Assembly: GCA_030431455.1 (NCBI GenBank)
Contig: JAUIJE010000001.1
Span: 186,001-250,000, forward strand
Reading direction: 5' to 3'
Source of the DNA: a bacterium
Lineage (GTDB): Bacteria; Myxococcota; UBA727; JAUIJE01
DNA: 64,000 nt
In this document: positions 44,114-57,412 of the stretch, piece after piece
How the letters are laid out: every line of letters starts with the position of its first letter
How positions within the stretch are numbered: position 1 is the stretch's first letter
Made by a program: the position numbers and the translations under genes
Notes under the pieces: model-generated
Databases searched by the model: none
Told to the model about the DNA's origin: nothing
Seen by the model: the letters and a program-made list of their open reading frames with translations, nothing else

Positions 44114-44728
44114 ATGCCCAACGTTTCCAGCACCCGCGGCGCCGCCGCCGCCCGCCAACCCCACGTCCCGAGCATGACCCCGCCGGCGGAGATGACCCGC
44201 CTGGCCCAAGCCGAAGCCGCCGCCGGCCGCGGGGTGGGCGAGATGATGATGCCCAAGGGCCGGGTCGACGACCTCGTCTCGCTCTACCACGCGGAAAAAC
44301 GCGACGCGGCCATCGCCACCGCCATCGCCGACAACGCGAGCATGCACATCCTGCGCTACAGCTACGGCACCCACAAAGGCATGGAGGCGTGGCTGGCCGA
44401 GGCCCCCCCGCGCGGCGAGAAGCTGAAGATGCAAGTGGTCTGCACCCCCAGCTGGCACGTGGGCAGCACCGAAGACCAAAAGGTCGCCAACGCCAACAAG
44501 TACGCGCTCAGCAACGCCTACATGTTCGAGGTGCGCTTCCCCGACGGGACCAAAGAGACCAAAGAGTTCAAGGTCAACGGCAGCACCCCCGAGTACGCGA
44601 CCAAGTCGCCGGTGATCGAAATCGACGCCGAGAAGTACAAGGGCCAAGACGTGGTCATCCTCGGCTGGCCCAAAGCCACCGGTGTCGGCGGCTACACCGA
44701 AGCGCGCAAGACCACCCTGCACCTGTAG
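44114..44728 (+). CDS. Unknown protein with Pro/Ala N-terminal tail
   Basis: 204 residues, GAGAAGGA before the ATG. Tail (MPNVSSTRGAAAARQP) similar in composition to the tails of the CHAD-like and giant CYTH proteins. Then a helical segment and a beta-rich half (EKLKMQVVCTPSWHVGST; YMFEVRFPDGTKETKEFKV; GQDVVILGWPKATGVGGYTE). No known family. Last gene of the plus-strand arm. Confidence 0.6.
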   Translation: MPNVSSTRGAAAARQPHVPSMTPPAEMTRLAQAEAAAGRGVGEMMMPKGRVDDLVSLYHAEKRDAAIATAIADNASMHILRYSYGTHKGMEAWLAEAPPRGEKLKMQVVCTPSWHVGSTEDQKVANANKYALSNAYMFEVRFPDGTKETKEFKVNGSTPEYATKSPVIEIDAEKYKGQDVVILGWPKATGVGGYTEARKTTLHL

Positions 44729-44735
44729 CCTCAGG

Positions 44736-44805
44736 GGGGCTGTTCCAGCCCCCCTCGGCCTTCACGGCTCGCAAGCTCGCCGAGTCAGGCCTCACCCCCG
44801 AGTCG
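44736..44805. repeat. 64-bp exact direct repeat, copy 1 (with hairpin)
   Basis: 44736-44799 is identical to 44994-45057, and after one mismatch AGTCG also matches. Starts with a perfect 7-bp hairpin (GGGGCTG-TTC-CAGCCCC, 44736-44752). Non-coding, between convergent genes. Confidence 0.9.
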
Positions 44806-44993
44806 TCGGGCCAGGTTCGCTTTGCTCACGGCCCTCCGGGGTTGCATCCGGTCGGATGCAACGCGCCGCGGAAACCGCGGGCCGCGGGGCCCCACTCCCC
44901 CCTCATCGCTCCAGGCTCCCGTCGGTCGCGTCGCGATGCCTCGCGTTTGCTCGGGCTCGTACGCTTCGCGTACGAGGCGACGGTAATTCGAGA

Positions 44994-45063
44994 GGGGCTG
45001 TTCCAGCCCCCCTCGGCCTTCACGGCTCGCAAGCTCGCCGAGTCAGGCCTCACCCCCAAGTCG
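44994..45063. repeat. 64-bp exact direct repeat, copy 2 (with hairpin)
   Basis: Second copy of the repeat at 44736, same orientation, 258 bp further on. The hairpin GGGGCTG-TTC-CAGCCCC is at 44994-45010. The sequence between the copies contains other hairpins unrelated to the repeat. Confidence 0.9.
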
Positions 45064-45446
45064 GCGCTCCAGGGGCCTCCGGCCCGTCGCGCCGGGTCGT
45101 ATGCATCTGCATACGACCAGTCGAGGAGTCTGGTCGCATACGACCGAAAAGACCCTTCAACGCTGCCACGCAGTGCGGGAGGGTCTCTTCAATTGTGCAT
45201 AGCCGCGCACACGACTCACACCCGCCCCAAAAGCTGCTCGCGCCTCCAACCAAACTCTCTTGAGCAAGCGGCGGGACGAGCCCCCATCGGGCGGTCGGAG
45301 CGGAAATGTTCGCCGCCGTCGACGGCGATATCCGGCCCCGGTGCCTGAATTTCAGCGAAGCATCCCGGCGGGCCGTCGTCGACAAATGGCGGTGAACGTT
45401 TTCGCGGAGCCCGCTCGACCACCGATCCGCCTGCTGAGAGTTGACC

Positions 45447-46640
45447 TCACCCGCGGAGATGGGCGAAGAACCGTTTGGCCTTGCTCGCGGCGGGGAACAC
45501 CTCGACCCCCACCTCGCGGAGCATGTCTTTGACGATGTTGTCCACCCGCTCGCCGATGGTGGGGTCGGGCACTTCGATCTCGAGCTCGTACGCGACGTGG
45601 TCGCCGGGGAACGTGGTGGTGTCCATCTCCAATGTGACTTCAATGTCCCCCAACTCGTCGCGCAGGGTGAATGGCTTTTTGATCCGGCGGTTCTCGAAGC
45701 TGCCGATGTTGGCCAGGGCCGCCCCCTCGAGCAGTTTGCGCATGTCGTCGGGCAGCACCGCCTCGGCCCCGTCCAGGGGATGCATCTGGGCGTACACCAG
45801 CGGGTCGAACTGCCCGGACTCGAACTCCGCGGTGGCCTCCTGATCGAGCACCCACTCCTCTTCGCGCTTCTGGGTCAGGGTCCCGTCCCCCGAGGAGCGC
45901 CCCTTGAGCGTGAGGGTCAGGGTGTCGCCCTCACGGCGCACCCGGCACACCATCTTCTCGCGGTTGAGCAGGAAAAAACTCGGGGTGTCGTAGAAGGTGT
46001 TCACCTGCACCCGCTGCACGGTGTCGTCGAGGCCGAACACCGCCCGGGCCTTGTCCGCGTCCGCTTTGCCGTTGAACGCGAATTTGAGCTCTACCTCTTG
46101 CGGCCCGAACAGCTCGCGGCCCACCGCCTCGAGCACGCGGGCGAGCTCGATGGGGGGCGGGTTGCAATGTGGCTGCACGTGAACGTGCAGCTGCCGCACG
46201 GACAGCGCGCGGGGGGGGTTGACCCAACACTGCACCGGCTGGGTCAACGTCGCGTGGGTCTGAAGGGCGTGCACCACCCGGCCCGCGAGCCGCTCGAGCG
46301 CGAGCTGCTCGGTGGCGGACAGGTCGGTGAGGAACATCGCGGGGCGCTTGGGCACGATCAGCATCTTGAGCCCGGCCCCGAAGCGGTCGAGCAACACCAT
46401 GTGGGTGTCGTCCTCGAACACCACCTGCTCGTCGTCGCGCGCCCCCGGCGCGTCCTCGGCGATGGGGGTGAAGGGGTCGGCCAGTTTCTCCACCCGGCCC
46501 CGCGCGGCCTTGACCGCGTCGTAGACCGCCTCGTTGGTGCCGCCGAGGGCGGCCTTCCAATCCGCGAACAGGGCCGGCCGGGCATCGTCGGCTTGACTGA
46601 CCCGGTGCGCGGGGGCGATGTCCTCGTCGTGGTTGCTCAT
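45447..46640 (-). CDS. HIT-domain / CYTH-domain fusion protein
   Basis: 397 residues. N-terminal HIT-like domain (about 70-160): LIVPKRPAMFLTDLS, then LHVHVQPH with His152, His154 and Gln156, i.e. the GalT-type H-x-H-x-Q form of the HIT motif with the nucleophilic His154. C-terminal CYTH/triphosphate-tunnel domain (about 180-395): EVELK (ExExK, 182-186), FYDTPSFFLL, CRVRREGDTLTLTLKG (233-247), KREEEW and YELEIEVP. The HIT family transfers or hydrolyses nucleotides, CYTH handles triphosphates, so the fusion probably acts on a nucleotide or inorganic triphosphate. No clear ribosome-binding site; a dyad abuts the start. No other obvious hypothesis fits both halves. Confidence 0.75.
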   Translation of the reverse strand: MSNHDEDIAPAHRVSQADDARPALFADWKAALGGTNEAVYDAVKAARGRVEKLADPFTPIAEDAPGARDDEQVVFEDDTHMVLLDRFGAGLKMLIVPKRPAMFLTDLSATEQLALERLAGRVVHALQTHATLTQPVQCWVNPPRALSVRQLHVHVQPHCNPPPIELARVLEAVGRELFGPQEVELKFAFNGKADADKARAVFGLDDTVQRVQVNTFYDTPSFFLLNREKMVCRVRREGDTLTLTLKGRSSGDGTLTQKREEEWVLDQEATAEFESGQFDPLVYAQMHPLDGAEAVLPDDMRKLLEGAALANIGSFENRRIKKPFTLRDELGDIEVTLEMDTTTFPGDHVAYELEIEVPDPTIGERVDNIVKDMLREVGVEVFPAASKAKRFFAHLRG

Positions 46641-46689: not shown

Positions 46690-49600
46690 TCAGCCTTGGG
46701 CGGGCGCGGTCAGTCCGCTCCAGGTCTCCAGTCGTTTGATCACCTGCGGCAGGTTGCTCCACCGGAGCGCGCTGGGGTCGAGCTTGTCCTTCTTCGCCGC
46801 CGCCCGCAGGGCTTTGCCCATCCAGGTCTCGGTCTCGGCGTTGAGGGCGCTGACGTCGATTTGGCCCGAGGTCTTGAGCGAGTCCACAATGGCATTGGTG
46901 TCCCAGCGCATGCCCTCGGACAGGTAGAGACCATCGGGGACCTCGAGCTTGCGGCTCTTGACCGCCTTTTTGAGGTCGTTGCTGCGGCTCAGGTCGCTCA
47001 TCACCGCGAGCACATCCTGCGGGGGGTTGCCGGCGTCGTCGACCAGCGCCCACAGCTTGTCGAACAGCTTGTCCTCATCCGAGAAGAACACCTGCTTGGC
47101 CTGCTCCTGGTAGGCGGCCTCGAAGTGGGCCTTGAGGTACTTCACCTTGGGGGCGGCCACATCGGGCAGGCCACCCGAGGACTGGTAGCGTTTGATCGCT
47201 TCGTCGGCGGTGTTGTGGCGCAACGAGCGCACCACCTGGTTCAAGGTCTGGGCCGCGGCCCCGGCGTCGAGGGCTTTCTCCACATAGGTGCGCAGGCTGC
47301 TGTTGTAGCTGACCCCGATTTCGCCCGCTGCGCCTTTGAGCACGTTGTGGACCGCGGCCTTGTCGACCGAGATCGACGGGGGCGTGACCCCGATGCGCTG
47401 GGCCGCCTCGGTGAACCACTTTTGGTAGTCCGCGCGGGACAGGGGATAGAGATTGCGCGCCTTGTCCGGGCTGGTCTGGTTGGCCACGTCGGCGAGGAAG
47501 GTCTCCAGCTCGGGGGTGAACACAACGTGATTGTTCGCGAGCTGGGCCTTGGCCCCATCGATGAACTGGGTCGGGTCGGTGTGCAGGGCGGGCACCTCCA
47601 GGCCGCCGGCCGCGGTGGCCAAGGTCTTGAGCCCGCTGTCCGCGTAGTAGTTCAACGACTGGATGGCCCGGCGCAGCTGGTAGGCGCTCGCCCCTTTGCG
47701 CTTGGCCGCGCGGAGCAGGGTCATGATCGCGTCCTTGTCTCCGGGCGCGACCCAGCCTTGTTTCATTTGGGCGTCGATCTTCTCGGCCTCGGCGAGCTTG
47801 TCGACGTTGATGGTCGCGCTCGGCGCGGGGGAGACGCCGGCTTTCTGGGCGAGCTCGGCCAGGGCTTTGCCCTCGTCCCCGGTGCGCAGCTGCCCCACCA
47901 ACCGGTGGAGGTCTTTGGGGGCGAGCTTCTTGGTGTCGAGCTGCTTGAGCATGTCCCGGATGCCCTTGTTGCTGTCGAGGCCCACCGATTCGAGGGTGTC
48001 GTCGACGAGCACGGACAGCGCCCGGTGGTCGTAGACGAGCTTGGGTGCGCTGCGGCCGAACACCTTTTTCACCAACGCGGCCGGGTCTTGACCGTTCCAG
48101 TCTTGGTCGAGCTGTTGGTTGAGCTTGTCGAGGCCGCCGTCTTTGTCCGCGAGCTTGTCGAACGCGGCCGCGAGGTCGTCGGTCCAGTCGAGACCAAAGC
48201 CGCGCAGGGCGAACTCGAGGCGCCGCTCCGCCCCCGCTTCGGTGTCCGGGTTCATGTCGAGGAGGTCGGCGGCGTGGGCGGCTTTTTGCTTGCCCGGGTT
48301 GAGCCCATCGGGGAACAGGAAGGGCAGCAGCTTGCCGTTGGCCCCCTCGAACTGCTTGTACGAATCGGTGCCCCGGAACGATTTGTTCTCGAGGTCTTCG
48401 AGCTCGTGCAGGCGGGGGTCGATGTCCATGGTGACCTTGGACCCGGTGGTCTTGAGCCAATCGTCCTGGGCATCGTCGGTGGAGAACGAGCCCGTGCCCG
48501 CCCCCGCGGCCTGGAAGCTGTTCTGGTTCTGCGATTGCAGCTGGAGGTGATCGAGTTCGCCCTCGAGCACGCAGAACTCAATCTTGCGCGGCTTGCCGTT
48601 GCGGTCGGCGTGGGTTGGGCGCAATGTCTCTGCAGTGACAAAGTCGAACGAGAACTCGATCTCGACCCCGGTCTTTTCGTTCTTCACCGTGAACTTGTGA
48701 CGGTCCTGGGTGATCTGCATGAATGGGTCGAGGGCCTCGGCGAGCTCGAGCTGGCTGTCGAGCTTCTTCACCTCGCGCTCGGCGTGGTTGAACACCGTGT
48801 TCGCCCATTTGCCGTTGGTCGCGACCCCCCGCAGAAAGCCGGCCACATCGTCGGTGTCCGCGTCCGCCTTGAGCTCCAAACCGACCTCTACGCGCTGGCG
48901 GATGCCGGTCTTGTCGTCGAGGCGACCGCCCCCGGGCTTGACGTTGATGAAGGTGGCCTGCTTGTTTTTGCGCAACCGCACCGCGCCTTCGTGGCGGGTC
49001 ATGGTGAGGTTCTTGTTGTCCATGTAGGCGTCGCTCATGGGGTCTTGCAGGGGCAGCCCGTCGTCGCCCACGCGGAAGCCAGCGAAAAACCCGGTGCCGG
49101 GTTTGCCCTTGTCGCTGCTGCCGTCGTCCTTGATCCAGTACCGGTTGACGGTGCTGATCGACCAGCCCTTGCCGAGGAGCTTCTCGATCTGGCTGTGGTC
49201 GCCTTTGCTGCTGGCCTCGACGATGCCGTACATCTTGTGCACCGCCGCGGTCATCTTGGCTTTGTCGGTGGTGCCTTTGAACTCAGACTCCAAGCGCGAC
49301 ACGATCGCGCCCCCGTCCTTGAGCATGGGGTAGGTCGCCACCAAGTCGGGGGCGTAGCCCACCTGCATGTCCAGGGGCAGGTCGGTGGCGTCGCCTTGGT
49401 TGCCGGTCATCGCCCCGATGCGGGTCGACGTCGGAGATTGGGCCCCTTCGGGCAACGGGGTCCGGAAGGAACCGCCGCGCGCCGGCCCCCCCGCGCGGTG
49501 CCGCACCCCCCCGCTGTCGTTGTTCCACATCGCCATCACCGACAAGCTGGTGTGGCCGGGGTTGATCTTGAGGTTGGGGTTGCGGGCCTGGAGGAACTTG

Positions 49601-50121
49601 TTCACGTCGGCGTAGCTGACGTCGAACGTGCGCGAGCCGCGGTACTTGTCCCCGTTGATGTTCTCTTTGTTGGTCAACACCGACAGGTTGATGGTGCGCA
49701 GCTGGTTGGTCTCGAGGTCGAGCACCTCGGCCATCAGCACCAGGGTCATCTTGTCGTTCTTGTCCTTGTGGAACGTGTTGACCGTGACCCGCACCCCGCC
49801 GGGGATGGCTTGGGGTTCGACCTCGATGTAGCCGCGCTTGACCGCGTCGCTGCCCGAGCCCGCGGTGAACGAGGTGTCCGCGCCGAAGCGGTTGGTGGCC
49901 ATGGTGTCGAAGGTGGTGGTCAACCCTTTGAGGCCGTTGATCGTCGCCTTGGGGGGTTGGTTGCTGATGCGCCCGGCCCCCGAGGGCACCGGCGCGGCGT
50001 CGGCCGCGGGGGTGGCGTCGCTGGTCGCGGGGGCCGCGGGGGCGGCCGGCCCGGTGGTCGCGGTGGTGCTGGTCGTCGAGGTCGCGGGGCGATTGGTGCG
50101 GGGTCGGTTGATGTGGGGCAT
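46690..50121 (-). CDS. Giant CYTH/triphosphate-tunnel protein, paralogue A
   Basis: 1143 residues starting MPHINRPR, GAGGC before the ATG. Layout: disordered Pro/Ala/Thr tail (1-50); beta-rich domain (60-215: GGVRVTVNTFHKDKND, VLDLETNQLRTINL, YADVNKFLQARNPNLK); CYTH domain (272-530) with ExExK as ESEFK (278-282), YMDNKNLTMTRHEG (367), RLRK (382-385), Lys395, RQRVEVGLEL (408), RHKFTVK (474), VEIEFSFDF (486) and CVLEGELDH (517); then about 570 residues of helical repeats of 80-90 residues. All tunnel signature positions are present, so it is likely catalytic. Its CYTH part is nearly the same as in B and C while the repeats have diverged. Substrate unknown: triphosphate, polyphosphate or a nucleotide. 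Confidence 0.75.
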   Translation of the reverse strand: MPHINRPRTNRPATSTTSTTATTGPAAPAAPATSDATPAADAAPVPSGAGRISNQPPKATINGLKGLTTTFDTMATNRFGADTSFTAGSGSDAVKRGYIEVEPQAIPGGVRVTVNTFHKDKNDKMTLVLMAEVLDLETNQLRTINLSVLTNKENINGDKYRGSRTFDVSYADVNKFLQARNPNLKINPGHTSLSVMAMWNNDSGGVRHRAGGPARGGSFRTPLPEGAQSPTSTRIGAMTGNQGDATDLPLDMQVGYAPDLVATYPMLKDGGAIVSRLESEFKGTTDKAKMTAAVHKMYGIVEASSKGDHSQIEKLLGKGWSISTVNRYWIKDDGSSDKGKPGTGFFAGFRVGDDGLPLQDPMSDAYMDNKNLTMTRHEGAVRLRKNKQATFINVKPGGGRLDDKTGIRQRVEVGLELKADADTDDVAGFLRGVATNGKWANTVFNHAEREVKKLDSQLELAEALDPFMQITQDRHKFTVKNEKTGVEIEFSFDFVTAETLRPTHADRNGKPRKIEFCVLEGELDHLQLQSQNQNSFQAAGAGTGSFSTDDAQDDWLKTTGSKVTMDIDPRLHELEDLENKSFRGTDSYKQFEGANGKLLPFLFPDGLNPGKQKAAHAADLLDMNPDTEAGAERRLEFALRGFGLDWTDDLAAAFDKLADKDGGLDKLNQQLDQDWNGQDPAALVKKVFGRSAPKLVYDHRALSVLVDDTLESVGLDSNKGIRDMLKQLDTKKLAPKDLHRLVGQLRTGDEGKALAELAQKAGVSPAPSATINVDKLAEAEKIDAQMKQGWVAPGDKDAIMTLLRAAKRKGASAYQLRRAIQSLNYYADSGLKTLATAAGGLEVPALHTDPTQFIDGAKAQLANNHVVFTPELETFLADVANQTSPDKARNLYPLSRADYQKWFTEAAQRIGVTPPSISVDKAAVHNVLKGAAGEIGVSYNSSLRTYVEKALDAGAAAQTLNQVVRSLRHNTADEAIKRYQSSGGLPDVAAPKVKYLKAHFEAAYQEQAKQVFFSDEDKLFDKLWALVDDAGNPPQDVLAVMSDLSRSNDLKKAVKSRKLEVPDGLYLSEGMRWDTNAIVDSLKTSGQIDVSALNAETETWMGKALRAAAKKDKLDPSALRWSNLPQVIKRLETWSGLTAPAQG

Positions 50122-50159
50122 GGGGCCTCGGGGACAAAATGGGTGTCGGGGCGTTCGAC

Positions 50160-50193
50160 AAAAAATGGAGCGCGCGGGGTCGGGCCCCGCGCG
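50160..50193 (-). terminator. Intrinsic terminator between giant genes B and A
   Basis: Perfect 9-bp GC stem (50171-50179 with 50185-50193), loop TCGGG, followed on the minus strand after 5 nt by TTTTTT (50165-50160). It implies that paralogue A is either expressed by read-through or from its own promoter. Confidence 0.75.
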
Positions 50194-50218
50194 AAGAGGG
50201 CGGAAGGGCCGCCGCGGT

Positions 50219-53200
50219 CTAGGGCACGCCCGCCGGGGGCGCGTCGCCGGACCAGGCTTGCACGTGTTTGACCACGTTCTGCGGGGTCTGGTTGTAAATG
50301 GTGTAGAGCACAAACTCGGGGTTCTGGATCGCCTTGGGCAACGCCTGCTCGAGGTACTTTTCAAGCTCAGGCTTCATCGTGCGCATGTAGCTCGACGAGG
50401 TCTTCCAGTAGCTGATGAGCTGATCGGGCTGCCACGCCACCTTGGGCTCGGTCAGGCCGTCGGGGACTTTGTAGGCGGGGACGAACCGCTTGAACGCCTC
50501 GCCCAATGTCTTGGAGCGGTTGAAGTACCCCGCGGCCCGGGTGAGGTTGTAGGGCGTGAGGGTCGGGTCGGCTTTGCACAGATCCACAATGAACTGCGCG
50601 ATCTCGCCGTGGTTGTTGAAGGGCACGTTCTGCGTGCTGTTCTGCAGGTTGTTGGACACAAAGCCCGGCTCGAACGAAATCTGCGGCACCTGCGTGCCCT
50701 CGGGCAAGGCCACCCGTTGGCGGCTGAACGCGTTGGCCGGCGTTTGGTTCCAGAGGCTGGCCACGAACCCTTCGACCTTGGACACCGGCGCGCCGTTGCC
50801 GAGCAGGTCGAGGGCGAACTTGGTCAAGGCGTCGTCGACCACGACCCCCACCTGACCGGCCGCGCCTTGGAGCCGGGACTTGACCGCGCTCTCGTCGAGC
50901 TGGAGCGGGGGCGCGGTCAGACCTTGCTTGGCCGCGAAGGCATCGAGCTGCTGCTTGAAGTCGGCGCGGGCCAGGCTCGACACGAAGGTGTGCATGTCGC
51001 GGCGCGGGACCTTCTTGGCCGCTTCTTTGAGGAAGTCCTCGAGGGCGCTGTCCACCATCACCAGGTGGGACGAGAGTTTGCCCGCGACCTCGCCGATGAC
51101 GCGCTTTTTGTCCGCGTGCAGCACCGGCGGGGTGGTCCCGGGGGCGGCCTGGGCCACCCGCTGGAGCGCCGACTCCGGGTTGTTGGCGAACACCGCGAGA
51201 GCGTCGCGGATCTTCTTGGCGCTGGCGCCCTTTTGCACCGCGTCGTCGACGAACGCCTGGATGTCGCCGAACGCCCCGCGGTCGATCCACGCCGCCGCCA
51301 TCGGGCCGTGCAGCCCCTGGGTGAGCTTTTGCGTGTCGATGCCGGGCGCGGGCACCGGGCTGACCCCCAGCGCGTTGGCCAGCGCGGTGAACGCGAGCTT
51401 GTCGTCTTGCTGGGGCACCCCGTTGAGCAACGTGCGCAGCTGTTGCGGGGGCAGCTTGGCGATGTCGATCTGGCCGAGCATGGCCTCGATCTCGGGGGTC
51501 ATGGTCAGCCCCAGCCCGGTGAGGCTCGCCTCGACGGTGGACTTGATCATCGCCGGGTCGTAGCGGAGGCCGGTCACGGGCTGGTTGTCGTTGAGTTGCT
51601 GCAGCAGCCCGTCAATGTTGTTGCGGTACTTGTCGAGGATCTGGTTGGTGCTTTGCACCCCGCCGTCGGCCTCGGCCTTGGTCTTGACGAGTTTTTCGAG
51701 CTCAGGCGTCCACTCGATGCCGTACTGCCCGACGAGGAAGGCCATCTTGTTGACCACCGCGGGCGCGTCCTTGACCACCGCGGACAGCAGGTCCGCACCG
51801 TGGGCGGCCTTCTGCTTGGCGGGGTCGAGTCCGGCGGGGAACAAGAAAGGCAGGAGCTTCTTGTTCGCCCCTTCGAAGGCTTTGTAGGAGCCGGTGGAGC
51901 GGAACGATTCGTTCTCCAGGTCCTCGAGCTCGTGCAGCCGGGGATCGATGTCCATCGTGGCCTGGGCCGACGTGGCCTTGAGCCAGTCGTCTTGGCTGTT
52001 GTCGTCCTTGAACGCCAAAAAGCCCGCGCTCGACCCTTGAAAGTCAGTGGCATTGGCGGACTGCAGCTGAAGGTGGTCGAGCTCGGCCTCGAGCACCGCG
52101 TATTTGACCTCCCGGGGGGAGCCGTCGAGGTTGCCGTGCTCGTTGCGCAACGTACGGGCGGTGACGAAGTCGAAGCTGAGCTCGATCTCGACCCCGGTTT
52201 TTTCGTTCTTGACCGTGAACTTGTGGCGGTCCTGGGTCACGTCGAGGAACGGCTGCAGGGTGTTGGCCAGCTGCATGCTCGCGTCGAGTTTTTTGACCTG
52301 CCGCTCGGCGTGGTTGAACACCGTGTTGGACCATTTGGCGTTGCGGGCCACGTCCTTGAGGTACTTGGCCGCGTCCTGTTGGGTCGCGTCCGCGCGCAGC
52401 TCCACCCCGACCTCGACCCGCTGGCGGATGCCGGTGCGCGGGTCGAGCCGGCCCCCGCCGGGCTTGACGTTGATGAACGTGGCCTGCTCGTTCTTGCGCA
52501 GGCGGATGGCGCCTTCCTCTTTGGTCATCGAGAGCTGGGCGTCGTCCATGTACTGGTCGCGCATGGGGTCTTGGATGGGCAGGCCCTCGTCGTCGACGCG
52601 GAACCCTTTGAACATCCCGGTGCCGGCTTGGCCCGGGGCGTTGGCGCTCCCGTCGTCCTTGAGCCAGTAGCGGTTGACGGTGGTGATGTTCCAGTCGGGG
52701 CCGAGCAGTTGGGTGATGCCCGAGCGGTCCCCGCCGGCGGCTTTGCCGACGAGGTCGTACATCTTGCGCACCGCCGAGGCCATGTCCTTCTGGGTCGAGC
52801 TGCCCTTGAACTCGGACTCGAGCCGGCTCACCACCGAGCCGCCTTGCTTGAGCATGGGGAACTGCTTGACCAGCTCAGCGGGGTAGGCGACCTGCATGTC
52901 GAGGGGCAGGTCGGTCTGCTCGGTGTGTCCCGTGACATTGCCGATGCGGGTGGCGGTGGGGGATTGCGCCCCGGCGGGCAGCGGGGTGCGGAAGTTGCCG
53001 CCCCGGCCCGGGCCCCCGGCTTGGTGGCTGCCGTTGAACTTCGCCGCCACCGCGAGCGACGTCGTGCCCGGGTTGAGCTTGAGGTTGGGGTTGCGCGCTT
53101 GCAGGTAGGCGTTGACGTCGGCGTAGCTGATGTCGAACGACGCGGACCCGCGGTAGCCGCCCTCGTTGAGCACCACCTGTTTGGCCAGGACCGCGAGGTT

Positions 53201-53638
53201 GATGGTGCGCAGCTGGTTGGATTTGGTGTCGAGGACCTCGGCCTGCAACACGAGGGTGAGCTTGTCCCCCTTCGACTTGTGGAAGGTGTTGACGTGAATG
53301 CGCGCGCCCCCGGGGATCGCGTCCGCGCTGACCTCGATGAAGCCGCGGCTGACCGCGCCTTCGCCCTCGGCGTGGAAGTTGTTGAACTCGGTGGTGACGT
53401 TGAAGCGGCTGCCCGCGGCCGACAATTCGCGCGCATCGAGGCCGTTGAGCCCGTTGATCGGGACCTTGGGCACCGCGGCGTTGATGGTGCCGGCGGCCGA
53501 GGGAATGGGGGCGTCGGGGGTGGCCGCGCCGGCGGGCGTGGTGGTGCCGGTGGCGGTGGTCGACGTCGTCGCGCCGGCGCCCGTGGTCCCGGTGGTCGCG
53601 GTCGGGGTGGTGGGGCGGTTGCGGTTGATGCTGGGCAT
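50219..53638 (-). CDS. Giant CYTH/triphosphate-tunnel protein, paralogue B
   Basis: 1139 residues starting MPSINRNR, GAGGTG before the ATG. Same layout as A: Thr/Ala/Pro tail to about 48, beta-rich domain (GGARIHVNTFHKSKGD, YADVNAYLQARNPNLK), CYTH domain with ESEFK (274-278), QYMDDAQLSMTKEEG, RLRKNEQATFINVK, RQRVEVGVEL, RHKFTVKNEKTGVEIELSFDF and AVLEAELDH, then helical repeats ending in IYNQTPQNVV. The acidic strand is VLEAELDH where A has VLEGELDH. In the repeats, units share a P-x-x-x-(V/L)D-x(3)-V start. No signal peptide or TM, so cytoplasmic unless the tail directs export. Confidence 0.75.
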   Translation of the reverse strand: MPSINRNRPTTPTATTGTTGAGATTSTTATGTTTPAGAATPDAPIPSAAGTINAAVPKVPINGLNGLDARELSAAGSRFNVTTEFNNFHAEGEGAVSRGFIEVSADAIPGGARIHVNTFHKSKGDKLTLVLQAEVLDTKSNQLRTINLAVLAKQVVLNEGGYRGSASFDISYADVNAYLQARNPNLKLNPGTTSLAVAAKFNGSHQAGGPGRGGNFRTPLPAGAQSPTATRIGNVTGHTEQTDLPLDMQVAYPAELVKQFPMLKQGGSVVSRLESEFKGSSTQKDMASAVRKMYDLVGKAAGGDRSGITQLLGPDWNITTVNRYWLKDDGSANAPGQAGTGMFKGFRVDDEGLPIQDPMRDQYMDDAQLSMTKEEGAIRLRKNEQATFINVKPGGGRLDPRTGIRQRVEVGVELRADATQQDAAKYLKDVARNAKWSNTVFNHAERQVKKLDASMQLANTLQPFLDVTQDRHKFTVKNEKTGVEIELSFDFVTARTLRNEHGNLDGSPREVKYAVLEAELDHLQLQSANATDFQGSSAGFLAFKDDNSQDDWLKATSAQATMDIDPRLHELEDLENESFRSTGSYKAFEGANKKLLPFLFPAGLDPAKQKAAHGADLLSAVVKDAPAVVNKMAFLVGQYGIEWTPELEKLVKTKAEADGGVQSTNQILDKYRNNIDGLLQQLNDNQPVTGLRYDPAMIKSTVEASLTGLGLTMTPEIEAMLGQIDIAKLPPQQLRTLLNGVPQQDDKLAFTALANALGVSPVPAPGIDTQKLTQGLHGPMAAAWIDRGAFGDIQAFVDDAVQKGASAKKIRDALAVFANNPESALQRVAQAAPGTTPPVLHADKKRVIGEVAGKLSSHLVMVDSALEDFLKEAAKKVPRRDMHTFVSSLARADFKQQLDAFAAKQGLTAPPLQLDESAVKSRLQGAAGQVGVVVDDALTKFALDLLGNGAPVSKVEGFVASLWNQTPANAFSRQRVALPEGTQVPQISFEPGFVSNNLQNSTQNVPFNNHGEIAQFIVDLCKADPTLTPYNLTRAAGYFNRSKTLGEAFKRFVPAYKVPDGLTEPKVAWQPDQLISYWKTSSSYMRTMKPELEKYLEQALPKAIQNPEFVLYTIYNQTPQNVVKHVQAWSGDAPPAGVP

Positions 53639-53709
53639 GGGGCACCTCGGTTGGCGGATCCCACGCGCGGGGCCGGGGCCCCAAATGGGCCGGGGCTCGG
53701 ACGGCTTCC

Positions 53710-53744
53710 GACAACCCAAAACTCTATGAAATCAAGGGGTTGTC
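53710..53744. promoter_or_regulatory. Inverted repeat upstream of paralogue B
   Basis: GACAACCC and its exact complement GGGTTGTC, 19 nt apart, 72 bp before the start of B. The spacer is A/T-rich and could hold promoter elements. Candidate operator or mRNA leader hairpin. Confidence 0.4.
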
Positions 53745-53754
53745 TGGCGGGGAA

Positions 53755-53806
53755 CCGTGCCCCCTATATAGCCCAAACTCCGCCGGATTGGCGGAGAAAG
53801 CCCGCG
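53755..53806 (-). promoter_or_regulatory. Upstream block shared by paralogues B and C (copy at B)
   Basis: About 50 bp that align with 57361-57412 upstream of C: CCGTGCCC, a TAT-containing step, GCCCAA, then CCG-ATT-GGCGGAG and GCCCGCG. At B the element includes a perfect dyad CTCCGCC-GGATT-GGCGGAG (53778-53796) and CTATATAG. Likely a shared promoter or operator duplicated with the genes. Confidence 0.55.
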
Positions 53807-53845
53807 TGCGGCCGCCTTGGCGCCCCTGGGCGCCACCCAAGCCGC

Positions 53846-53867
53846 TCTTACATAAGTCTTACATAAG
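53846..53867. repeat. Tandem 11-bp repeat TCTTACATAAG x2
   Basis: Two exact, adjacent copies of TCTTACATAAG just after the stop of paralogue C. Each has a CTTA/TAAG dyad, so this may be a double operator spaced by one helical turn, lying about 200 bp upstream of B. Confidence 0.7.
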
Positions 53868-53914
53868 TCCTGCGCGAGGTCCGCCCAGCGAAGGCCACCA
53901 CCGGCGATCCTGGG

Positions 53915-56900
53915 TCAGAGGCCGAGCGCGTCGGGCAGGGCCACCCCGGACTGCTCGGCCAGGCGTTTGGCCACCGACGACAAGCTGCCCTTTTTCATCC
54001 GCAGGATGCTGAACTTCGCGTCGCCGCTGGCCTTGTCGAACACCTTTTTGACCCACGCCTCGACCGCGGGGCTGACTTTGGCCCCGTGCGCTTGTTTGAG
54101 GTGGGCCACGAAGGCGTCCTCATCGAAGTCCACCGCGGGCACCGTGAGCCCGCCGGGCACATCCACCTTGGCGCTCTTGATCGCGGCCGCGAGGTCGGGC
54201 ACCCGAATCTTCTCGAACATCGCCACCACATCTCCAGGAGCATTGGCGCCGTCTTTGATCAGCTTCTCCCCGAAGGCGAGCAGCTTGGCCCCATTGCCCA
54301 CGAAGTTCTCGTCGAACGCCGCCTCGGCCGCGTGGTCGAACGCGGTGGGCGCGAACGCGATGTCCGGCACCGACAACCCCGCGGGGACCTTGATGTGGGA
54401 AGCCTTGAGCGCCTGCTCGGGGGTGTTCATCCACAGGCGGCTGACGAAGGGGGCAATCTTCGACGAGGGCGTGCCCGCGTCGGCCAGGGCGTGGCAAAAG
54501 CCCTTGAGCGACGCGTCGTAGACCACGTTGGCCCCCGCGCAGGCCGCCTTCAGGCTCTCGTCGAGGGCGGCCTTGTCGAGCTCGAGGGCGGGCATGGTCA
54601 CACCCAGGTCCTTGGCCTGCTTTTGCAAGAACCGCTCGAAGTCGCTTCGGCTCAGCGACGACACGAAGGTCTGGACCTCGGTGAGCGGCTTTTGCTCGGC
54701 CACCTGCTCGAGGAGCTTCTTCAGGGCGGGGGTGAGCTTGATGTTGTGGCGGGTGAAGTGGACGTTGGCCTCGTCGACCACGCGTTTTTTGTCCGCGTGG
54801 ATCACGGGGACCTGGGCCGCGCTCCCCCCCGGCGCGCTGCGGGCGATGTAACCCAGCGCGCGGTCGCCGTACGACGAGAAGTTGCGCATGTACGACGCGA
54901 TGCGGTCGCCGGTGACGCCCTGTTGGAGCATCTGCCCGAGGAACTTCTCGATCGCCTTCCGGTCGGCCGTGGCCACCCACGCGGTGTCGAGCTGGGGCTC
55001 GATGCTCTTCATGAATTTGGCGGGGGAGAACGTCGGCTCGGGAGCGCGGCCGCGTTGGCCGAGCCGGGCCGCCATGTTGCGGAACATGTAGGCGGGGGTG
55101 GCGGTGGCGAGGGCGTCCAGGGTCTGCTTGAGCTCCACCGGGTCGAGCTTTTTGGGGTCGAGCTTCTTGATCAGGTCTTTGACCCCGTCGTTGATGGTGT
55201 AGCCGGCGGCGTCGAGGGTGGCGGTGATGGTCTTTTCGATCCCGGCCTTGTCGTAGGTGAGGGCGGGGGTTCGCTGGGTGTCGAGCACCGCGGCGAGGTA
55301 CTGCTTGACGTTGCGGAACTGTGGCAAGCGGCCGAGGTCGCGGCCCACATCTTTGATGCCGTCGTCTTTGTCGAGGCGTTTTTTGAACGCTTTGTCGACG
55401 TTGGCGGTCCACTCCAGACCCAGCGAACGGAACTGCCGCTTGGCCGCGGTGAGCGCGCTGTTCTTGTCGGTGATGATCAGGTCCAGCAACGTGGCTGCGT
55501 GGGCGGCCTTCTGCTTGCCGGGCTTGAGCCCCCTCGGAAAGATGCGCTGGAGGAGCTTGCCGTTGGCCCCCTCGAACGCCTTGTAGGACTCAGTGGACCG
55601 AAAGCTGTTGTTCTTGAGGTCTTCGACCTCGTGCAGGCGGGGGTCGACGTCGAGGGTGACCTTGCTCGAGGTCTTCTTGAGCCAATCGTCCTGGCCCCGG
55701 TCGTCCGAGAACGACGACGACGACGCCCCCGCGGCCTGAAACTCATTCTGGTTGGCGGACTGCAGCTGCAGGTGGTCGAGCTCCCCTTCGAGCACACAGA
55801 ACTCGATGACCTGGGGCTTGCCGTCGGCGCCGGCGTGCTCCGGCCGGGTGGTGGTGGCCTTGACGAAGTCGAAGGAGAACTCGATCTCCACCCCCGTCTT
55901 CTCGTTCTTCACCGTGAACTTGTGGCGGTCTTGCACCACCTCGAGGAACGGCTTGAGGGACTCGCTGAGCGCGATGGTGGGGTCGAACTTGTGCACCTCG
56001 CGCTGGGCGTGGTTGTACACCGTGTTGCCCCACTGGGAATTGGTGGATACCCCGCGCAGAAAGCCCGCCGCGTCGTCGACATCGGCGTCGGCCTTGAGCT
56101 CGACCCCGACCTCCACGCGTTGGCGGATGCCGGTCTTGTCGTCGAGGCGACCGCCCCCCGGCTTGACGTTGATGAACGTGGCCTGCTTGTTCTTGCGCAG
56201 CCGGATCGCCCCTTCGTGGTGGGTCATGGAGAGGTTGCCGTCGTCCATGTAGCTGTCGCGCATCGGGTCCTGGATCGGCAGCCCTTCGTCGTCGACGCGG
56301 AACCCTTTGAAAAAGCCCGTGCCGGGCTTGCCCGGTTGCTCGGCCCCGCCCTCGTCCTTGAGCCAGTAGCGGTTGACCGTCGAGATCGTCCAATCCTTGC
56401 CGAGCAGCGCCTCGACGTCGCTCTTGTCGCCGCCCTGGATTTTCTCGACCATCGCGTACATCTCTTTGACCGCGCGGGTCATCTCCGCCTTGTCGGTGGT
56501 GCCTTTGAACTCCGACTCCAGGCGCGAGACGATGGCCCCCCCGGGCTTGAGCATCTTGTAGGTCCGGGTCAACGCGGGGTCGTAGGCGACCTGCATGTCG
56601 AGGGGCAGGTCGGTGGCCTCGCCGCGGTTGCCCGACAGGTTGCCGATGCGGGTGGCGGTGGCGCTCTGCGCGCCCGCGGGGAACGGGGTGCGGAACGAGC
56701 CCCCGCGCCCGGGCCCGCCGGCCTGGTGTCCGCTCTTGAAGCGGGCCGCGACCGACAGCGGGGTGTGACCGGGGTTGAGCTTGAGCGCGGGGTTGCGGGC
56801 TTTGAGCCACTTGTTCACGTCGTCGTACTTGAGGTCGTAGACCTTCTGCCCGCGGTAGCTGTCGCCGTTGATCTTCTCGTTCTCGGCGAGGATGCCGAGG

Positions 56901-57334
56901 GTCACGGTGCGCAGTTGGTTGGTCTTGGTGTCGAGCACCTCACACATCAAAAACAACGTGATCGCGTCGTTCTTGGTTTTGTGGAAGGTGTCGACGGTGA
57001 CGCGGCAACCGCCGGGGATGGGGTCGGCGTTGACCTCGATGAAGCCGCGATCGACCGGGCCTTCACCGTCGGCGTGGTAGTGCTGAAATTGGGAATCGCC
57101 CGCGAAGCGCCGGGTGGCGTTGGTGGGCATGGTCGGGCGCTTGCCGCCGAACCCGTCGATGGTGGCCTTGGGGACGTTGGATTGGATCTCGCCCGCCGCG
57201 CTCGGCACCGGGGGGGTCGTGCCCGACGTGCCCGCGGCCGGGGTGGTGGCGGTGGCGCCGCTGGTCGACGTCGCGGCCCCAGAGCTGGCGGCGCGCGGGG
57301 TCCGGGTGGAGCGGGGACGGTTGATGCGGGGCAT
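53915..57334 (-). CDS. Giant CYTH/triphosphate-tunnel protein, paralogue C
   Basis: 1139 residues starting MPRINRPR, GAGGTG before the ATG. Thr/Ala/Pro tail to about 48, beta-rich domain (GGCRVTVDTFHKTKND, YDDVNKWLKARNPALK), CYTH domain with ESEFK (273-277), SYMDDGNLSMTHHEG, RLRKNKQATFINVK, RQRVEVGVEL, RHKFTVK, VEIEFSFDF and CVLEGELDH, then helical repeats (VPAGLSVPDIAFAPTAF, VPGGLTVPAVDFDEDAF). Closest to A within the CYTH domain. First of the three giant genes in transcription order, 136 bp after the RMD1 gene; the shared promoter block is 27 bp upstream. Confidence 0.75.
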   Translation of the reverse strand: MPRINRPRSTRTPRAASSGAATSTSGATATTPAAGTSGTTPPVPSAAGEIQSNVPKATIDGFGGKRPTMPTNATRRFAGDSQFQHYHADGEGPVDRGFIEVNADPIPGGCRVTVDTFHKTKNDAITLFLMCEVLDTKTNQLRTVTLGILAENEKINGDSYRGQKVYDLKYDDVNKWLKARNPALKLNPGHTPLSVAARFKSGHQAGGPGRGGSFRTPFPAGAQSATATRIGNLSGNRGEATDLPLDMQVAYDPALTRTYKMLKPGGAIVSRLESEFKGTTDKAEMTRAVKEMYAMVEKIQGGDKSDVEALLGKDWTISTVNRYWLKDEGGAEQPGKPGTGFFKGFRVDDEGLPIQDPMRDSYMDDGNLSMTHHEGAIRLRKNKQATFINVKPGGGRLDDKTGIRQRVEVGVELKADADVDDAAGFLRGVSTNSQWGNTVYNHAQREVHKFDPTIALSESLKPFLEVVQDRHKFTVKNEKTGVEIEFSFDFVKATTTRPEHAGADGKPQVIEFCVLEGELDHLQLQSANQNEFQAAGASSSSFSDDRGQDDWLKKTSSKVTLDVDPRLHEVEDLKNNSFRSTESYKAFEGANGKLLQRIFPRGLKPGKQKAAHAATLLDLIITDKNSALTAAKRQFRSLGLEWTANVDKAFKKRLDKDDGIKDVGRDLGRLPQFRNVKQYLAAVLDTQRTPALTYDKAGIEKTITATLDAAGYTINDGVKDLIKKLDPKKLDPVELKQTLDALATATPAYMFRNMAARLGQRGRAPEPTFSPAKFMKSIEPQLDTAWVATADRKAIEKFLGQMLQQGVTGDRIASYMRNFSSYGDRALGYIARSAPGGSAAQVPVIHADKKRVVDEANVHFTRHNIKLTPALKKLLEQVAEQKPLTEVQTFVSSLSRSDFERFLQKQAKDLGVTMPALELDKAALDESLKAACAGANVVYDASLKGFCHALADAGTPSSKIAPFVSRLWMNTPEQALKASHIKVPAGLSVPDIAFAPTAFDHAAEAAFDENFVGNGAKLLAFGEKLIKDGANAPGDVVAMFEKIRVPDLAAAIKSAKVDVPGGLTVPAVDFDEDAFVAHLKQAHGAKVSPAVEAWVKKVFDKASGDAKFSILRMKKGSLSSVAKRLAEQSGVALPDALGL

Positions 57335-57360
57335 GGGGCACCTCGTGACGTGACAAAACG

Positions 57361-57412
57361 CCGTGCCCGGTATTGCGCCCAAGTGCCGATTTTGGCGGAG
57401 GTTTTGCCCGCG
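57361..57412 (-). promoter_or_regulatory. Upstream block shared by paralogues B and C (copy at C)
   Basis: Matches 53755-53806. It retains CCGTGCCC, GCCCAA, CCGATTTTGGCGGAG and GCCCGCG but the dyad is imperfect here. It is much nearer the start (about 27 bp) than at B. Upstream of it, on the minus strand, an A/T-rich run (57445-57470) follows the RMD1 stop. Confidence 0.5.

Follow-up and report, generated by a model that had tools for sequence, protein, structure and literature searches.

Introduction

Very small dispersed palindromic repeats that share a fold with compensatory changes, occur nested and belong to one lineage were reportedly described in Nostoc by Elhai et al. in 2008. These SDRs are said to be 21–27 nt long and are not known to be linked to an enzyme. 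Stem-loop sequence families are reported to have been described by Petrillo and colleagues. In the accessible text on such families (PMC2267715) they are genome-specific stem-loop repeats, and "stop codon" and "compensatory" occur 0 times each in that text, so that neither feature belongs to its account. The REP, REPIN and BIME sequences are extragenic palindromes with complementary stem variants, dispersed and partly clustered, as far as the available sections of three reports go (PMC3116915, PMC3733652, PMC8266576), and REP stems often carry G-T pairs according to the available section of one of them (PMC3733652). MITE-like repeats such as NEMIS/Correia, ERIC, RUP and CIR are, in the accessible part of PMC2229807, intergenic sequences of 100–200 bp with structured transcripts that are thought to be moved in trans.

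Here we describe an element found in a stretch of 64,000 nt of bacterial DNA (the window). With a probability of roughly 70%, it is a non-autonomous, lineage-restricted mobile palindromic repeat of ~135 nt, of which the window holds a small array. It is probably a new family of mobile palindromic repeats, akin to REPs and SDRs and tied to gene 3' ends. As in the Nostoc SDRs there is a common fold with compensatory changes (33 of 36 pairs here) and there is nesting, but the element is ~135 nt long, has four stem-loops and keeps a set position a few bases after gene ends; the closer match to the SDRs is a smaller repeat, X, nested within it. The features of REP, REPIN and BIME sequences given above are shared, but the element is larger, comes without a RAYT or the GTAG/CGTC tag, keeps a strict distance to the stop codon and has no clear G-T excess. 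It also resembles the MITE-like repeats in the features named, but no terminal inverted repeat joins its ends, no TA duplication was seen and it has four serial hairpins and not one long stem. Like the stem-loop sequence families it is genome-specific. A search of titles and abstracts in the open-licence literature with a few wordings returned no fitting stop-codon-anchored palindromic repeat, and unopened literature may differ.

The array in the window

The array spans 44729–45119 and contains the element twice in full and once in part. The features are as follows (window coordinates, which equal the coordinates of contig C8 minus 186000; H1–H4 are the four stem-loops of the unit):

44114–44728, plus strand: co-oriented upstream gene of 204 aa, TAG stop at 44726–44728, separated by 4 nt from where pairing in the element begins
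44729–44864, plus strand: element copy 1, from the covariance model (model positions 1–134, E 3.2e-23; C8:230729–230864)
44733–44755, plus strand: H1 of copy 1, G-rich hairpin AGGGGGGCTG-TTC-CAGCCCCCCT, from sequence and fold
44757–44791, plus strand: H2 of copy 1, outer stem of 5 bp, TCA, inner stem of 4 bp, with model pairs positioned by eye
44841–44862, plus strand: H4 of copy 1, GTTGCATCCG-GT-CGGATGCAAC, from the stem count
44893–44977, plus strand: partial copy, H3–H4 part, from the covariance model (model positions 65–133, E 0.0037)
44956–44976, plus strand: H4 of the partial copy, CTCGTACGC-TTC-GCGTACGAG, from the stem count
44987–45119, plus strand: element copy 2, the genome's best model match (E 9.9e-29, itself a member of the model alignment; C8:230987–231119)
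45095–45118, plus strand: H4 of copy 2, GGTCGTATGCA-TC-TGCATACGACC, from the stem count
45146–45190, plus strand: separate hairpin AAGACCCTTC..GGAGGGTCTCTT, outside the element and downstream of the array (fold z -5.4)
45447–46640, minus strand: converging flank gene, from the gene calls

The first-pass annotation had placed this cluster between converging operons, and the two flanking genes do converge. The exact 64-bp repeat at a spacing of 258 bp that it reported was found again as the longest direct repeat (44736 and 44994), and it widens to 83 bp at 94% identity (44733–44815 and 44991–45073). Its count of at least seven perfect stems was slightly high: with loops of 2–4 nt, 44736–45186 holds six distinct stems of at least 6 bp, five of at least 7 bp, three of at least 9 bp and two of at least 10 bp, the last agreeing with its two hairpins with 10-bp arms. 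The excess itself is clear, since the five stems of at least 7 bp compare with no more than two in any of the window's 278 other 451-bp tiles or of 300 dinucleotide shuffles. The three differing arms that had been cited (GTTGCATCCG, GTCGTATGCA and CTCGTACGC) are all present, and the first hairpin (AGGGGGGCTG/CAGCCCCCCT) begins 3 bases before the interval that had been given.

No Pfam match was obtained for the upstream gene (44114–44728), and the separate hairpin at 45146–45190 is a possible terminator of this gene. Elsewhere in the window (46690–57382, minus strand), three very long genes of 1224, 1166 and 1155 aa adjoin one another and may be tandem paralogues.

A dispersed family of four-hairpin units

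Aligning 21 copies gave a unit of ~135 nt with four consecutive stem-loops. These are, in order, a G-rich H1 (a GC hairpin of 8–10 bp just past the stop codon), H2 (5-bp outer stem, unpaired TCA and 4-bp inner stem), a conserved CACCCCC linker, H3, and H4, which occurs as types GTTGCATCC, GTCGTATGC and CTCGTACGC. With a 91-base query taken from the repeat, blastn matches at 38 places were found in the element's own genome (a 7.7-Mb assembly of 28 contigs). A covariance model built from the 21 copies (R1) gave 79 matches at E ≤ 1, and a refined model built from 77 of these matches (R2) gave 78; the two sets are nearly identical, so the census has converged. The whole-genome search proposed in the first-pass annotation thus returned many other copies, so the lack of any further copy, which was to refute its observation, did not come about, and the non-coding mobile repeat, one of the readings offered there, is supported by it. 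About fifty places are occupied in the genome, and nearly all of them follow a gene end at a distance of a few bases, a placement that the first-pass annotation had missed.

Further tandem copies occur on C6, C24 and C28 and at C8:52324–52730. Contigs C6 (C6:1–436, L118) and C20 (C20:1–132, L125) start within copies of the element, so longer tandem arrays have probably been collapsed or broken in the assembly.

A number of copies differ from the common layout. A conserved tail, CAGCTGAGGTTTTGGGATGTGCTCTAG, follows H4 in some (e.g., L104, L105, L106, L130, L134 and L147) and may be the true right end of the element; in L130 the CTCTAG of the tail abuts H1 of the next copy. A variant with a different H2, of type CTCGCGCGCGCGAGCGCTC, and the same H1 and H3–H4 was seen at L067, L070, L071, L072 and L080, and is evidence for module exchange. 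At L167:1440–1700 there are two similar units with a CTGA-like left end, an AGGGG/CCCCT-type hairpin and repeat X, which look like members of another, divergent hairpin family at gene ends.

Nested repeat X

X is a double-hairpin repeat of 41–43 nt (type TGGCCATTCCnnnGGAATGGCTnAAGCAACGCGAAGCGTTGCC), present at 56 places with at most three mismatches as against none for a reversed control. Its arms vary in concert too. X was found in H3 at the position GTCG|CTGCTCC, which is empty at C11:310733 and filled in L004, L010 and L018, and also in the loop of H4 (L012 and L026) and in H1 (L018, minus strand, and L005). This pair of occupied and empty sites is direct evidence of mobility, for X and not for the main element. 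The element itself has been remodelled by tandem duplication and by the nesting of X.

Distribution outside the genome

None of 57 other relatives matched the element at E ≤ 0.01 (15 belong to the same order and none to the same family or genus). Under stricter filters and at E ≤ 0.001, a further 194 genomes from the phylum were without a match as well. An exact 22-mer of the core was without match in the contigs of the species genomes, a set from which the organism's own record is possibly absent, and viral contigs gave no match to the core pattern. With a degenerate core pattern, two matches were found in 84,980 species genomes, both coding when inspected by eye. One (L209) lies within a sensor-kinase-like frame and was rejected as a copy; the other (L210), scoring E 3.9e-6 with R1, has no H1 and stays a coding, sugar-epimerase-like frame, and was taken as a chance match. 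The element is therefore lineage-restricted among the genomes compared, none of which is of the same family or genus.

Covariation of the hairpin arms

In an alignment of 77 copies, 91% of the cells in pairing positions are paired, and 33 of 36 pairs have changed on both sides. Both-sided changes fill 516 cells, as against a mean of 167 in shuffles and at most 111 when the partners are slid. H4 by itself occurs with 11 different perfect 9-nt arms in 42 perfect copies, and these combine with various types of H2, which makes the units mosaic. The covariance modelling that the first-pass annotation had suggested therefore bears out part of its statement that compensatory change maintains pairing as a mark of selected structure: pairing does outlive changes of the arms. 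Selection is not safely implied, as A-C mispairs are nearly as frequent as G-U.

Over all pairs there are 2149 Watson-Crick, 81 G-U, 65 A-C and 150 other combinations, and in H2–H4 of the best 50 copies 22 G-U and 29 A-C, all of them counts over related sequences and not independent events; the alignment made with the covariance model (A2) favours standard pairs, so that G-U is if anything inflated. As a yardstick, 27 distinct tRNAs of the same genome (from 30 of 44 tRNA loci) have 30 G-U and 0 A-C among 575 pairs, although ARAGORN may itself avoid A-C pairs. The clear excess of G-U over A-C that marks a structured RNA under selection was thus not found in the element. Since G-U is hardly above A-C, the constraint looks to be at the level of DNA rather than RNA. 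The symmetry of the mispairs points to palindromes kept as DNA, to correction by template switching or to neutral decay of once-perfect copies, and either of the first two accounts for the pattern no less well than selection on RNA would. The near-equality of G-U and A-C could in part reflect neutral decay of dead copies, which would be strand-symmetric whatever selection acts on the source copies.

It is quite conceivable, although we would put it at somewhat below even odds, that the concerted changes are the product of a mutation process alone, template switching in which one arm corrects the other, which would be silent on selection. Double-sided changes are common, one-sided wobble is rare and A-C nearly equals G-U, as such a process would have it; the hairpins of X behave alike, and the process has been described for hairpins of RNA genes in the accessible part of PMC8794818. 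A neutral process by itself, however, would not preserve TCA and CACCCCC as unpaired blocks, together with five separate stems (H1, outer and inner H2, H3 and H4), across ~70 copies, and a requirement for DNA hairpins in mobility would yield the same symmetry.

Placement behind gene ends

Seventy matches have a called gene on each side, and in 67 of them the upstream gene is co-oriented with the element. Placement was scored at 50 distinct stop codons lying -5 to 62 nt from the element; tandem second copies, partial or antisense matches, copies at contig ends and sites without a nearby called gene were left out, as were L096 (tRNA fragment), L113 (upstream gene in the opposite direction), L138 (87 nt), L143 (128 nt) and L103 (stop 176 nt away, with a terminator-like hairpin between). 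Taking the model's placement of the first H1 pair, 38 of the 50 stops lie 5–10 nt before that pair and another six 44–49 nt before it, the latter having X inside or before H1. In copy 1 of the window, H1 starts 4 nt after the TAG when its first A-T pair is counted.

The gene ends themselves share a short motif. Directly before the stop, the two bases W-Y (A/T, C/T) stand in 44 of 50 cases, whereas 28 of 189 other gene ends have them (Fisher p 2e-22). Every one of positions +2 to +5 is a pyrimidine at 39 of the 50 ends and at 17 of the 189, and the stop is TAG in 29 of 50 as against 58 of 189; these 189 background ends come from the examined loci and the window, and L063 among them is probably a remnant of the element. 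The left end reads W-Y-T-R-R, the stop being T-R-R, followed by pyrimidines. At least two of the stops look native, since the DUF819 and acyl-CoA dehydrogenase domains run to 3–6 residues before theirs. Random insertion and purging alone does not explain the absence of the element from other intergenic DNA.

One copy stands behind part of a tRNA. At L096:1500–1690 (minus strand) the array starts 9 nt after the 3' half of a tRNA (T-arm, acceptor strand and CCA); ARAGORN found no complete tRNA at this locus and there is no 5' half. The tRNA half looks like the attachment-site remnant of an integrated island, and if it is one, the element originally stood behind a tRNA gene. By this case the rule concerns gene ends and not translation alone.

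Three roles were considered for this placement and rejected. A regulon of related genes does not fit the unrelated upstream functions, which include CorC, EAL, DnaJ, SDR, GroEL, PspA, thioredoxin and others (20 of the 50 genes scanned, four without match). A part in stop read-through, or a SECIS-like role, does not fit either, as the linker (~6 nt after TAG, ~7 nt after TGA) and the hairpin lengths vary, so that no reading frame is kept. Nor does H1 serve as the genome's general terminator: a search with one H1 sequence gave 21 matches, 19 of them at copies of the element and the other two at L063 and L081, and H1 is missing from the window's remaining gene ends.

A wider reading, which we regard as unlikely, is that of a functional 3'-UTR RNA or a terminator without a U-run, spread by duplication and kept because H1 ends or protects the transcript, the distance to the stop being functional. 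The tight spacing, the fixed orientation and the tRNA case, with gene ends and not only stops involved, all agree with it, and the sense RNA folds of four copies are better than shuffles (z -6.1, -3.6, -5.7 and -2.2). The antisense RNA and the DNA fold about as strongly, however (for copy 2, sense -6.1, antisense -5.5 and DNA -5.5/-5.3). A T-run (at least five T in 8 nt) follows none of H1, H2, H3 or H4 in any of 50 copies, so the bidirectional terminator suggested in the first-pass annotation is without intrinsic-terminator support, and the element is not a canonical intrinsic terminator. The structured RNA, its third suggestion, found no match in Rfam 15, which gave nothing in the window and a single weak, unrelated match among four loci; the element is not a demonstrated functional RNA. 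Further points against the 3'-UTR reading are the scarcely visible G-U excess, the mixture of gene functions, the W-Y preference before the stop, which it leaves unexplained, and the downstream genes, which in 41 near-stop cases are convergent in 21, co-directional in 18 and not called in two.

Enzymes and element ends

In the broad sense the element is REP-like, with many extragenic palindromic copies in one genome (79 matches), most of them behind stops. That it is a classic REP or REPIN, moved by a RAYT (TnpAREP) or by another HUH enzyme cutting beside CT, is nevertheless distinctly improbable. It has short extragenic hairpins, with complementary alternative stem residues as in the GTAG REPs (available section of PMC3733652), and most of its left junctions read W-C-T, while TnpAREP cuts at CT beside the REP (accessible part of PMC8266576). 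The unit, however, is ~135 nt with four hairpins as against 20–60 nt, the GTAG/CGTC tag is absent, and no Y1_Tnp (PF01797) was found in the 97%-complete own assembly by a search that was positive in 5 of 14 control genomes. As far as this assembly shows, the element is not a RAYT-driven REP. A search for reverse transcriptases (RVT_1, PF00078), which a group II intron-derived or other retro-element would call for, also found none there, with 3 of 14 controls positive, and one for IS91-type Y2_Tnp was silent in the genome and in the controls as well. At the junctions no TIR or TSD is apparent, with the right end only loosely placed. Among the genomes compared, none of which is of the same genus or family, no transposition event, empty site or target duplication of the main element came to light.

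Integron attC sites have the core motif GTTRRRY/RYYYAAC. An attC-type site would be a palindrome that follows a cassette's stop codon and is conserved in structure, and the element does follow stop codons directly with its structure better conserved than its sequence, but its single copies behind ordinary chromosomal genes (groEL, dnaJ, pspA), the absence of cassette arrays and the core motif not seen by eye in the alignment make this reading barely credible.

Proposed mechanism and implications

What we infer of an enzyme, a mechanism and any benefit starts from the dispersal, structure, covariation and placement described above. For the mobile palindromic repeat that we prefer, an enzyme acting in trans would recognise the hairpins as DNA, either as single strands or as cruciforms, and entry would take place beside the short gene-end motif W-Y-T-R-R, with the stop codon as T-R-R. 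Palindromy would be kept at the DNA level by what the mobilising enzyme needs, by template-switch correction or by both, and inactive copies would decay. A tight hairpin behind the stop may cap the 3' end of the mRNA as REP hairpins do, and copies are perhaps tolerated or kept as such a hairpin is harmless or helpful to the transcript.

A more specific proposal is made tentatively, and we think it rather unlikely as it stands: the element would home to gene 3' ends, an enzyme of no known transposase class reading either W-Y-T-R-R plus pyrimidines or the 3' end of the RNA and inserting the four-hairpin unit in one orientation at a fixed 5–10 nt behind, with the palindromes copied arm-to-arm as single-stranded DNA. 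If true, the element would have reached dozens of genes and left each of them intact.

The family could make two matters testable, namely how very small palindromic repeats spread without a recognised REP transposase, and whether the "compensatory change" that is usually taken as proof of a functional RNA can, in bacterial hairpins, arise at the level of DNA. Its ~70 copies in one genome have arms that change in concert and are without the G-U intermediates left by selection on RNA. The gene-end rule, whose motif overlaps the stop codon, puts a sharp limit on where such an element lands.
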